Below, piece by piece: positions 33,233 through 62,355 of a stretch of DNA of 64,000 nucleotides (the stretch's first letter is position 1; each line of letters begins with the position of its first letter). The stretch covers positions 64,001 to 128,000 of the IMG/VR virus record IMGVR_UViG_3300046513_000221, one strand, 5' to 3'. Source of the DNA: a virus. The notes beneath the pieces were generated by a model. It was not told the origin of the DNA. It was given only the letters and a program-made list of their open reading frames with translations, and made no database searches. A program made the position numbers and the translations under genes.

Positions 33233-33262
33233 ATGGGTATGAGCCGAAAGGTTCATACCCAT
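33233..33262 (+). terminator. GAAA-loop hairpin at end of virion cluster
   Basis: ATGGGTATGAGCC, GAAA and GGTTCATACCCAT pair. There is no T run directly after, and AACGT/ACGTT repeats flank the hairpin. Confidence 0.65.
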
Positions 33263-33287: not shown

Positions 33288-33299
33288 AATATATTATGT
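33288..33299 (+). promoter_or_regulatory. ATATATNAT promoter-like motif
   Basis: GAATATATTATGTAAG lies 46-57 bases before the ATG at 33345. Confidence 0.6.
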
Positions 33300-33344
33300 A
33301 AGTGATGACTTAGGGTTCATCTTCTAATATAGGGAGTTTTAGTA

Positions 33345-33848
33345 ATGCCTAAATACAACTGCACCGTAGTAAAGCGTCCATCTCAGTTCAACCTGCGTCA
33401 GTGGAAGACCAATCTGCCGAAAGCGAAGGGTCTCCAGTACCTGTACTGCTCCGAAGTGGCCGACAAGGGCAACGAGGACATCGGTGGTGATATGACGTCC
33501 TACCTGCTTCTCAACGGTAAGGTCATCTTCGCATCGCTACTGGCCGCTGGTCACGATCTGCCTGAAGGGGATGCTCGCGCACCGAACACCCGTTCCGTGT
33601 CGATCTTCCTGATGCCGGGTCAGGAGCCTGAGAAGGCATTCGCCCCGCTATTCAGTGTCCCGAGCATCGTTGACAGTTCGCTGGCCGATGGTCTGGTCGT
33701 GTACGACATGACATCCCCGACCTTCGACGGATTCATCGCCGGTTGCAAAGAGATCGAGAAGAAGAATAAGGATCTCGGCGACAGTGTGAGCTCTTTCTTC
33801 GCGAAGTACCGCGATCTGATCGAGGGTCATCTGCGTACGAAACACTGA
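33345..33848 (+). CDS. Uncharacterised 167-aa protein upstream of structured RNA
   Basis: The protein has mixed alpha/beta character (MTSYLLLNGKVIFASLLAAGHDLPEGDA, FLMPGQEPEKAFAPLF) with a charged helical C-terminus. ATG follows AGGGAGTTTTAGTA. The gene has its own promoter-like motif and runs directly into the structured RNA region at 33849-34245, so both could lie on one transcript. Function unknown. Confidence 0.7.
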   Translation: MPKYNCTVVKRPSQFNLRQWKTNLPKAKGLQYLYCSEVADKGNEDIGGDMTSYLLLNGKVIFASLLAAGHDLPEGDARAPNTRSVSIFLMPGQEPEKAFAPLFSVPSIVDSSLADGLVVYDMTSPTFDGFIAGCKEIEKKNKDLGDSVSSFFAKYRDLIEGHLRTKH

Positions 33849-34245
33849 TGTGGTGCAATGCAGTCTGGTGAAAGGATGAAAGTCCTTGGGATTCTACGAA
33901 ATGGTATTTTTGCACACCTAACAAGGTAATGTACCAGTGAGTGGGCCTCTGCCTTCCGTGCGACATCGTCGCCTGTGCGTCCCGCGCCCACTCCGTAAAC
34001 GAATTCTTCTCTGGCTTGCACCCCGGAAGAATGGAGCGTCGGGAGACGTTCCACCTCACAGACCGCAAATCGGTCTGCTGGTCGTTGCCGCGAAGCGCCG
34101 GTCACGTTGGATAAACGTGCTGGATGCTAATGCGTGGCTACGGCTGATCAGGGAAGGCTTTGCCAACCCAACCCCGAGGCGGGATAGCGGCGTTCGGGCC
34201 GTTGCGGCGTCGAGAGACGCCACCCGCCTCACCTTTTTTTTTTTT
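33849..34245 (+). ncRNA. Candidate structured non-coding RNA (about 400 nt)
   Basis: There is no convincing gene, but there are many nested perfect stems: GTGCAA/TTGCAC (33853/33910) enclosing AAGGA-GAAA-TCCTT; GAGTGGGC/GCCCACTC (33939/33986) enclosing GCGAC/GTCGC; ATTCTTC/GAAGAAT (34003/34026); TGGAGCGTC-GGGA-GACGTTCCA (34032); CAGACCG/CGGTCTG (34059); CACGTT/AACGTG (34103); and GAGGCGGG/CCCGCCTC (34176/34223) enclosing GGCGTC-GAGA-GACGCC. Several have GNRA tetraloops, typical of folded RNAs with tertiary contacts. A 12-T run ends it. No tRNA, tmRNA, RNase P or group I intron core was recognised. Confidence 0.65.
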
Positions 34246-34306
34246 GCACAATCTAGTTATGCGATAGCTGGAGCCTTCTACTTTTGCGTGTTATACCGCC
34301 AAAATC

Positions 34307-34342
34307 TACCACATGAGACCTCACGGTTTCATGTGGTATTTC
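34307..34342 (+). terminator. Hairpin after the structured RNA region
   Basis: TACCACATGAGACC, a 4-base loop and GGTTTCATGTGGTA form a 14-bp stem followed by TTTC. Confidence 0.65.
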
Positions 34343-34356
34343 AATCTAGCTATTAG

Positions 34357-34367
34357 GTATATATAAT
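34357..34367 (+). promoter_or_regulatory. ATATATNAT promoter-like motif
   Basis: GGTATATATAATAACG lies about 55 bases before the ATG at 34420. Confidence 0.6.
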
Positions 34368-34419
34368 AACGACGATACAGATTACAGGTTTGTACCTGCA
34401 CAGCATTTAAAGGACACGT

Positions 34420-35649
34420 ATGTCTAAAACAGTATTTGATTTCATTCCATCCTTCATCACCATCTCCGACGTACACCACGGCGCGAAGCCGGAAGAGCAG
34501 ATGCGTCACGAGTTCTACGGTGAAGGCGGTTTCTTCGATGTGCTCGATGCAGCACTGCCGGAACCGGAGTTTCTCGGCGTGGCGATCACCGGCGACTGGT
34601 GGGACTGCAAGCTCTCCATGAATGATCCGAAGGCCAAGCTCGGTACCTCGATCGTCGTGGATATCATGACCCGCTGCAAGAGTCACAACAAGTGGCTCAT
34701 CATCCTGCGCGGCACGTATTCGCACGATCTCCAGCAGCTGGACCACTTCAAGGAACTCGAAGTAACCTACGAAAAGTTCCGTCTATTCAACACCGTCGAG
34801 GAGTTCCAGTTCGGGCCGCTGAAGACTCTGATCGTCCCGGAGGAGTACCCGAAGGATCCGGACGAGTACTACGGCGAGTACTACGACCGCAAGTACGATC
34901 TGATCCTCGGTCATGGCTTCTTCGACTTCAACTGTTTCGACTCCAACGACGCCGAGAAATCGATGCCGTCGATGCCGGTCTTCGATGCAGAGAAGTTCTG
35001 CAAGATGGCACCGCTGACCATCTTCGGCCACGACCATACCCACAAAAACTTCATCGGCGCGATCCACAAGGGCATGAAGGGCAAGCCGGGTCGCATCTTC
35101 TACAACGGCTCCTTCTCCCGCCTCTGCCACGGCGAGGAACCGGCGAAGGGCTTCCTCTACGTCGTCTATGATCCTAGCGATATTCAGGTGAACTTCATCG
35201 AGAACGAGCTGGCTCCGAAGTACGTGACCGTCAACATCGAGTCTCTGATGCGGAAGGTCGCCACGATCAACTTCGAGTCCATCGTGAAGACGACGGAGGC
35301 TTACCGTAAGGCTCACGGTGTCTACGACCTGAAGGTCAAAGTACCGGCGAAGTTCTCCGAAGAGTACCGGAACGAGGTGGAGCTAGCTAAGAACTACTTC
35401 TCCAGCCGCGACGGCTTCCGGTTTGAGACTGGTCGCCTGAGCATCGCCCACAAGGACGAGAACGTCACCGACGTGCATGGTGAGACCGAGAACGGTAGCA
35501 GCATCGAGAACTCGCAGTATGCCTTCCTCTTCGGTAACGACGACATCGTGACGAAGATCGGCAAGTTCATCGACACCAAGCACAACGGCGAGATCACGCT
35601 GAGCCGGGAGGACATCGCGCAGTGTCTCGCTCCGGTCAACAACACCTAA
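34420..35649 (+). CDS. Mre11/SbcD-like nuclease (T4 gp47-type)
   Basis: The 409-residue protein has the calcineurin-type phosphoesterase motifs in order: ISDVHHG (about residue 13, D-x-H), GDWWD (about 54, GDxxD), RGTYSHD (about 100, in place of GNHD), GHGFFDF (about 165), and FGHDHTHKNF (about 202, GHxH). Family members pair with a Rad50/SbcC ATPase to process DNA ends for recombination; a matching ATPase lies at 41323-44106 on the other strand. The C-terminal 190 residues would form the capping and ATPase-binding part. ATG follows AAAGGACACGT. Confidence 0.92.
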   Translation: MSKTVFDFIPSFITISDVHHGAKPEEQMRHEFYGEGGFFDVLDAALPEPEFLGVAITGDWWDCKLSMNDPKAKLGTSIVVDIMTRCKSHNKWLIILRGTYSHDLQQLDHFKELEVTYEKFRLFNTVEEFQFGPLKTLIVPEEYPKDPDEYYGEYYDRKYDLILGHGFFDFNCFDSNDAEKSMPSMPVFDAEKFCKMAPLTIFGHDHTHKNFIGAIHKGMKGKPGRIFYNGSFSRLCHGEEPAKGFLYVVYDPSDIQVNFIENELAPKYVTVNIESLMRKVATINFESIVKTTEAYRKAHGVYDLKVKVPAKFSEEYRNEVELAKNYFSSRDGFRFETGRLSIAHKDENVTDVHGETENGSSIENSQYAFLFGNDDIVTKIGKFIDTKHNGEITLSREDIAQCLAPVNNT

Positions 35650-61542: not shown

Positions 61543-62355
61543 ACTGACAAAATCGTAGGCTACATTTTTCATGAGAGCGGTCCGGTGAACGAGTCGGAGA
61601 TCCGCTCGATCGAACACCGTCGCAATGGTGTGGTACGCATGACGACCGTGTTGCAGGAGGCGAACCTCCCGAACCGCAACGGTCGCATCTACCCTAAAGC
61701 TATCATCGAGAAGGCTCTGGCGGCTCCTTTCATCAAGGAGAAGCTGGGTACTAATTCCCTGTTAGGCGAGGACGGTCACCCTGTAACGGACTCGATCCAG
61801 CGTCAGGCAACCATCGTCCAGCAGAACGCCGCCTGTGCCATCAAGCGCTTCTGGTGGGACGAGAGCGACTCCAACATCCTGCTGGGTGAAGTGGAGTCGG
61901 CTGGCACCACCGTCGGTAAGGACTGGGCCGGTCTGATCCGCGAGAACGGCATGATCCCCTCGTTCTCCATGCGCGGCATGGGCGACGTGATCAAGGGTCC
62001 GGGCGGTCGCGTGACCGTCAAGGATCCGCTGCGTATCGTCACGTACGACGCGGTCAACTTCCCTTCGCACCAGAAGGCTTACATGCGCTCGCTGCAGGAG
62101 CAAGTGGATCCGACCACCGCGATCCGTATGTCGCAGCTGGCTCGCTACGCAGCCGAGAACAGCAAGGACATGTCGATGCTGAACGAGTCCGTCCTGTGCA
62201 TCACTCAGGACAAGATCGACTTCTCGCTGAACGAGAAGGGTCAACTGGTAGTCACCGACAAGTCGGATGGTCAACCGAAGGCCGTGATGCTGCTTGAACG
62301 GAACCTCGAACGCGAGGTCACCGACGCGTTGCGCTCCCTGCGCTTCGGCAGCTGA
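61543..62355 (+). CDS. Prohead protease (T4 gp21-type)
   Basis: The ATG at 61543 follows AAAGGAATATGTC. The 270-residue protein has the family N-terminus (EANLPNRNGRIYPKAI, residues 44-59) and the segment LLGEDGHPV (about 78-86) that carries a catalytic His, followed by the beta-rich core (NILLGEVESAGTTVGKDW) and the NGMIPSFSMRGMG segment (about 143) that supplies the conserved Ser. Prohead proteases cut scaffold and capsid proteins during head maturation. The C-terminal 70 residues are probably scaffold-like. Confidence 0.93.
   Translation, partial: TDKIVGYIFHESGPVNESEIRSIEHRRNGVVRMTTVLQEANLPNRNGRIYPKAIIEKALAAPFIKEKLGTNSLLGEDGHPVTDSIQRQATIVQQNAACAIKRFWWDESDSNILLGEVESAGTTVGKDWAGLIRENGMIPSFSMRGMGDVIKGPGGRVTVKDPLRIVTYDAVNFPSHQKAYMRSLQEQVDPTTAIRMSQLARYAAENSKDMSMLNESVLCITQDKIDFSLNEKGQLVVTDKSDGQPKAVMLLERNLEREVTDALRSLRFGS

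Follow-up and report, generated by a model that had tools for sequence, protein, structure and literature searches.

To our knowledge, only a few large structured RNAs of phages have been described, and their functions are poorly understood. GOLLD and ROOL are often located near a phage tRNA island and assemble into RNA nanocages. Many GOLLD RNAs are longer than 800 nt, and the residue numbering of ROOL extends beyond 460 (PMC12286853). Yersinia phage phiR1-37 was reported to express misc_4, an intergenic RNA of about 300 nt that lacks a reading frame, at 61,640-61,936 (PMC4848604). In phage AR9, early promoters follow the consensus AAATATATATTAT-(6N)-G and late promoters AACA-(6N)-TA/G (PMC5312081), and a late consensus has been reported as missing in phiR1-37.

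The window analyzed here comprises bases 64,001-128,000 of the 263,413-base virus record IMGVR_UViG_3300046513_000221, and positions refer to this 64-kb stretch unless stated otherwise. The DnaB-like helicase, SbcD/SbcC-like proteins, terminase, and multisubunit RNA polymerase (RNAP) beta subunits identify the source contig as a jumbo phage of the phiR1-37/AR9-like type. The closest named phage is phiR1-37, with 39.5% amino-acid identity in RNAP beta. Two IMG/VR contigs, G001 and G002 (IMGVR_UViG_3300047095_000811), are nearer, with 54% identity in SbcD, and are more than 99.9% identical to each other across their overlap. Genome contigs searched with RNAP and SbcD alignments yielded no relatives. 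Neither tRNA genes nor Rfam families above threshold were found anywhere in the 263-kb contig.

The region of interest, 33849-34245, starts directly past the end of a 167-aa gene (stop codon at 33846-33848) and finishes with a run of 12 T (34234-34245), so the limits given by the original prediction were correct. Among the gene-free gaps of the window, the one to which it belongs (33849-34419) is the largest, and this gap also contains the most GC-rich 150-nt block among contig gaps of at least 150 bp (0.65, vs. a mean gap GC of 0.45). Codon log-odds, trained on 14 long ORFs from the window, were negative or zero in all six frames, compared with +0.53 to +0.72 for three neighboring genes, and ORFs inside the region left no trace in Pfam or PHROG at E<=1. 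These results bear out the claim that the region holds no credible gene, and codon log-odds likewise detected no coding frame across it that would speak against an RNA. A GTG ORF at 33937-34356, which runs through the T tract, was dismissed as a gene, since it has negative codon scores and belongs to no family. The region thus qualifies as a structured non-coding RNA candidate with no apparent coding capacity.

The Rfam and homologue searches that had been suggested with the original prediction both came back empty. Rfam 15 covariance models gave nothing credible on the region at the gathering threshold or even at E<=10, and no covariance-model or ARAGORN match was obtained for tRNA, tmRNA, RNase P RNA, group I or II introns, known ribozymes, or riboswitches, in agreement with the earlier statement that tRNA, tmRNA, RNase P, and group I introns do not fit. 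Matches by blastn in phages and plasmids were absent or at chance level, DNA searches of the two nearest contigs found no copy, two exact-pattern scans of IMG/VR returned unrelated loci only, and there were no significant paralogues within the phage. phiR1-37 gave no match by sequence or covariance models. Covariance models R1 and R2 were also negative over 25 related records; being built from a single sequence, they have little power, and a diverged homologue could be missed.

The predicted fold consists of a 5' domain, a row of hairpins, and a terminator domain, as follows.

33852-34022, plus strand: 5' domain, an inverted repeat closed by GGUGCAA (33852-33858) and UUGCACC (34016-34022)
34032-34169, plus strand: central hairpins, mean pair probability 0.92-1.00, made up of the next four features
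34032-34053, plus strand: GGGA hairpin
34059-34077, plus strand: hairpin
34080-34145, plus strand: long interrupted stem
34151-34169, plus strand: small stem
34176-34245, plus strand: terminator domain, an 8-bp stem with two hairpins (one with a GAGA loop), then ACC and T12; z -4.8

The helices of the 5' domain have mean pair probabilities of 0.65-0.99. The domain encloses a GAAA hairpin and two branches, 33902-33936 and 33939-33993, with stems at 33902/33931, 33939/33986, and 33960/33968, and a continuation of 7 bp plus 4 bp pairs 33888-33898 with 33994-34007. In the terminator domain the folded part covers 34176-34230. The final stem had been described as followed by 12 T; the T12 run is present, but ACC intervenes and the stem encloses two inner hairpins. 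In addition, GCCTTCC (33951-33957), in an internal loop of the 5' domain, is a perfect 7-bp complement of GGAAGGC in a later hairpin arm (34152-34158). This pairing could be a pseudoknot, though such matches arise by chance.

Of the helices in the predicted fold that are 5 bp or longer, 14 have a mean pair probability above 0.8; together they make up 94 bp. Dinucleotide shuffles gave 5.8 +/- 3.0 such helices and reached 14 in 1 of 200 cases; random windows of the phage gave 6.1 +/- 2.8, and none of 200 reached 14. The antisense strand of the region forms only 7. On a fixed grid over the whole phage, 14 helices occurred in 12 of 2080 windows and 94 bp in 4 of 2080, which places the helix content in roughly the top 0.2-0.6% of the contig; as the ends of the region were tuned and the grid positions were not, it should be read as a top-half-percent feature and not as a unique one. 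At least ten nested perfect stems had been predicted, and although the number was exceeded by confident helices, some of the stems contain G-U pairs and bulges. The three predicted GNRA hairpins are present, all on the sense strand: GAAA at 33878, GGGA at 34041, and GAGA at 34212. None of 5000 shuffles had three GNRA-capped stems (at least 6 bp) in 394 nt. Over the contig they average 0.06 per 394 nt, and grid windows have two at most. The minimum free energy, about -165.7 kcal/mol, corresponds to a z of -3.93 for the sense strand (opposite strand, -2.6); the sense value lies near the 5th percentile (-4.28) of the 397-nt windows of this phage and is modest only. The claim of far more structure than expected therefore holds for well-defined helices but not for energy. 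By helix count and GNRA stems, the modeled structure exceeds that of nearly all shuffled sequences.

The region might also be a spacer, or what is left of a decayed gene, with structure that arose partly by chance in a GC-rich stretch. The modest free energy, the 12 grid windows that also reach 14 helices, the lack of homologues, and a place that varies between relatives are all compatible with this view. Against it stand the missing protein trace in every frame, the three GNRA hairpins that no shuffle reproduced, the preference of the structure for the sense strand, and the terminator that the unit possesses. A chance spacer is rather unlikely, and the sequence evidence favors a real structured RNA.

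The features that may define the transcription unit are listed below.

33233-33262, plus strand: probable terminator hairpin after the upstream 212-aa gene, an inverted repeat with 13-nt arms, 92% complementary
33288-33304, plus strand: promoter of the early, virion-RNA-polymerase type (AATATATTAT-GTAAGT-G), with its start predicted at G33304, fitting the AR9/phiR1-37 early consensus
33345-33848, plus strand: orphan 167-aa gene, codon score +0.53, front of the putative transcription unit of the RNA
33841-33852, plus strand: late-promoter-like site, AACA-CTGATG-TG, with the AR9 late letters; would start the RNA at G33852
34307-34338, no strand assigned: second terminator-like hairpin in the interval between the RNA and SbcD, 14-nt arms, 93% complementary
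34359-34374, plus strand: early promoter of the SbcD-like gene (34420-35649), ATATATAAT-AACGAC-G

The core of the early promoter, TATATTAT-N6-G at 33290-33304, lies just upstream of the 167-aa gene. The early-type arrangement of an AT-rich motif, 6 nt, and G is likewise found at 34360 and other places, and the contig has 31 matches to the pattern TATATNATNW, including 33290 and 34360. The hairpin at 33233-33262 probably divides the unit of the 167-aa gene and the RNA from the preceding operon. The original prediction had placed the RNA between two operons. This does not hold as stated: the only convincing promoter for the RNA is the early one of the 167-aa gene at 33290, so that the RNA probably forms the 3' portion of the unit transcribed from there. 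SbcD, further downstream, has a separate early promoter at 34360. The simplest unit would run from the early promoter at 33290 with its start at G33304, through the 167-aa gene and the structured RNA, to the terminator at 34245. A riboswitch or leader of SbcD was dismissed, since a terminator and the separate early promoter of SbcD intervene.

Both AR9-type promoter classes seem to be used in the contig, early (33290, 34360) and late. Of the tetramers upstream of genes, AACA has the strongest strand bias, and the late form AACA-(6N)-TA can be read from the sequence alone. EM motif discovery restricted to the window yielded no useful motif. The non-virion RNA polymerase might instead produce an independent late RNA from the AACA-N6-TG site at 33841; its start would be G33852, which is the first base of the closing helix. 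Late promoters of this kind appear to be widely used here (AACA-(6N)-T(A/G) upstream of genes: 40 forward vs. 12 reverse, with spacing 6 alone standing out), and the letters of the site fit the AR9 late consensus. However, TG replaces TA and a G precedes the T, and the site reaches 4.0 bits, against a median of 12.3 and a 5th percentile of 8.2 for the late sites of the phage, a comparison that concerns the variable positions only, as the reference sites were picked by the same letters. In addition, 406 contig positions score equally well. A late start at G33852 is possible but improbable, and with so poor a match a separate RNA would need to be processed from a longer transcript.

The 167-aa protein has no family in Pfam, PHROG, NCBIfam, or PADLOC and no relatives by tblastn or IMG/VR scan, and its predicted fold (pLDDT 39) is an unusable model. 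It is linked to the RNA by position alone. The nearest relative shows the same order of a 207-aa gene, a terminator, an early promoter, a small gene, SbcD, and DnaB. Its slot holds an unrelated 123-aa early ORF (L005:7617-7988), 12 bases from SbcD, and lacks both the structured RNA and the 167-aa gene, which makes these two look like exchangeable early cargo. Unrelated small orphan genes thus occupy the slot between the 207/212-aa gene and SbcD in two related phages, and the slot is possibly a site for host take-over cargo.

Tentatively, and short of holding it probable, we favor lineage-specific early cargo, in which one transcript carries the orphan 167-aa protein and a structured RNA that probably persists and acts in trans. 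The virion RNA polymerase would start at about G33304 and produce a single transcript of ~940 nt that extends to the T12 terminator (34245). The 167-aa protein would be encoded at its front, and the rear part (~33852-34245) would fold during transcription into a compact RNA made up of the 5' domain, the row of stable hairpins, and the terminator domain. Once the mRNA part had been trimmed by processing, the RNA part would probably persist as a stable RNA and work in trans during host take-over, perhaps in partnership with the 167-aa protein. This reading draws on the lack of coding, folding potential above background, the early promoter motif, the terminator, and the absence from the nearest relative. 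It is also consistent with the direction-specific structure and with a GC-rich island amid AT-rich gaps.

The same observations fit a very elaborate 3' untranslated region (UTR) of the 167-aa gene, in which the hairpins guard the early mRNA against 3' exonucleases and secure termination, and no separate RNA is made. The only strong promoter precedes the 167-aa gene, and the structure starts right past its stop codon and finishes in a terminator. However, the other terminators of this phage are single short hairpins before the T run, and neither stability nor termination would need anything near ~390 nt, a long-range multi-branch domain, and three GNRA stems. We consider a 3' UTR somewhat unlikely as the whole explanation and prefer the early cassette of protein plus RNA. 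A more far-reaching version of the cassette is unlikely: a new class of large RNA in which a two-domain RNA of ~390 nt and a dedicated 167-aa partner, both from one early promoter, would form a ribonucleoprotein that takes over or disarms the host; in phiR1-37/AR9-like jumbo phages the pair would be swapped in and out at a place flanked by conserved replication genes. Taken together, the sequence makes a new phage RNA credible, with its production and job putative. If the preferred reading is true, an early-transcribed RNA tied to a small variable gene, in a jumbo phage with its own RNA polymerases, would open the part that such RNAs play in host take-over to testing; should the region be only an ornate 3' UTR, its interest is small.

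Two further stretches were observed outside the region. Just past the window, contig positions 129,693-130,299 (G000:C1, L013) contain four early promoters in tandem, ATATATNAATAT, and at least two of these precede a near-identical hairpin (GGAGGGTGTGACCAC..GTGGTCATTCTCC). Behind the promoters comes a stretch of ~370 bases that has stops in every forward frame and ends in a terminator with 13 T. This stretch is a candidate for a second non-coding early RNA. In G002, ~560 gene-free and highly structured bases on the minus strand (L051:2483-3047) lie directly upstream of a tRNA cluster (Asn, Ala, Tyr, Ser, Glu), a GOLLD/ROOL-like placement, and contain a 14-bp long-range helix GCCCGCCUCAUAAG/CUUAUGAGGUGGGC. 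No Rfam family matched this stretch, its blastn match in phages was at chance level only, and it has no alignable similarity to region 33849-34245.

The original prediction had pointed to GOLLD and ROOL as possible relatives. Like them, the region is phage-encoded and non-coding, with many helices and no assigned function. Unlike them, it is only about 390 nt and thus much shorter, has no Rfam match to either at any threshold used, and lies in a contig without tRNAs. The suggested relation was therefore not supported, and the sequence indicates that the region is not GOLLD or ROOL. misc_4 of phiR1-37 is similar in being frame-less, intergenic, and of comparable size, and it belongs to the closest named phage; it is located elsewhere, beside the RNAP beta gene. 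Its expression is a precedent for such RNAs in this phage group. The structured 3' ends of phage early mRNAs with intrinsic terminators likewise follow a stop codon and lead up to a hairpin and T run, but where they have one hairpin, the region has about 390 nt that include a long-range closed domain. Units that pair a protein with an RNA are also found in phages and mobile elements, such as type III toxin-antitoxin systems and IscB/TnpB with guide RNA. The 167-aa protein has no family match and the RNA no Rfam match (e.g., HEARO), but by analogy the locus may resemble these units in that a gene would share its transcription unit with a structured RNA.
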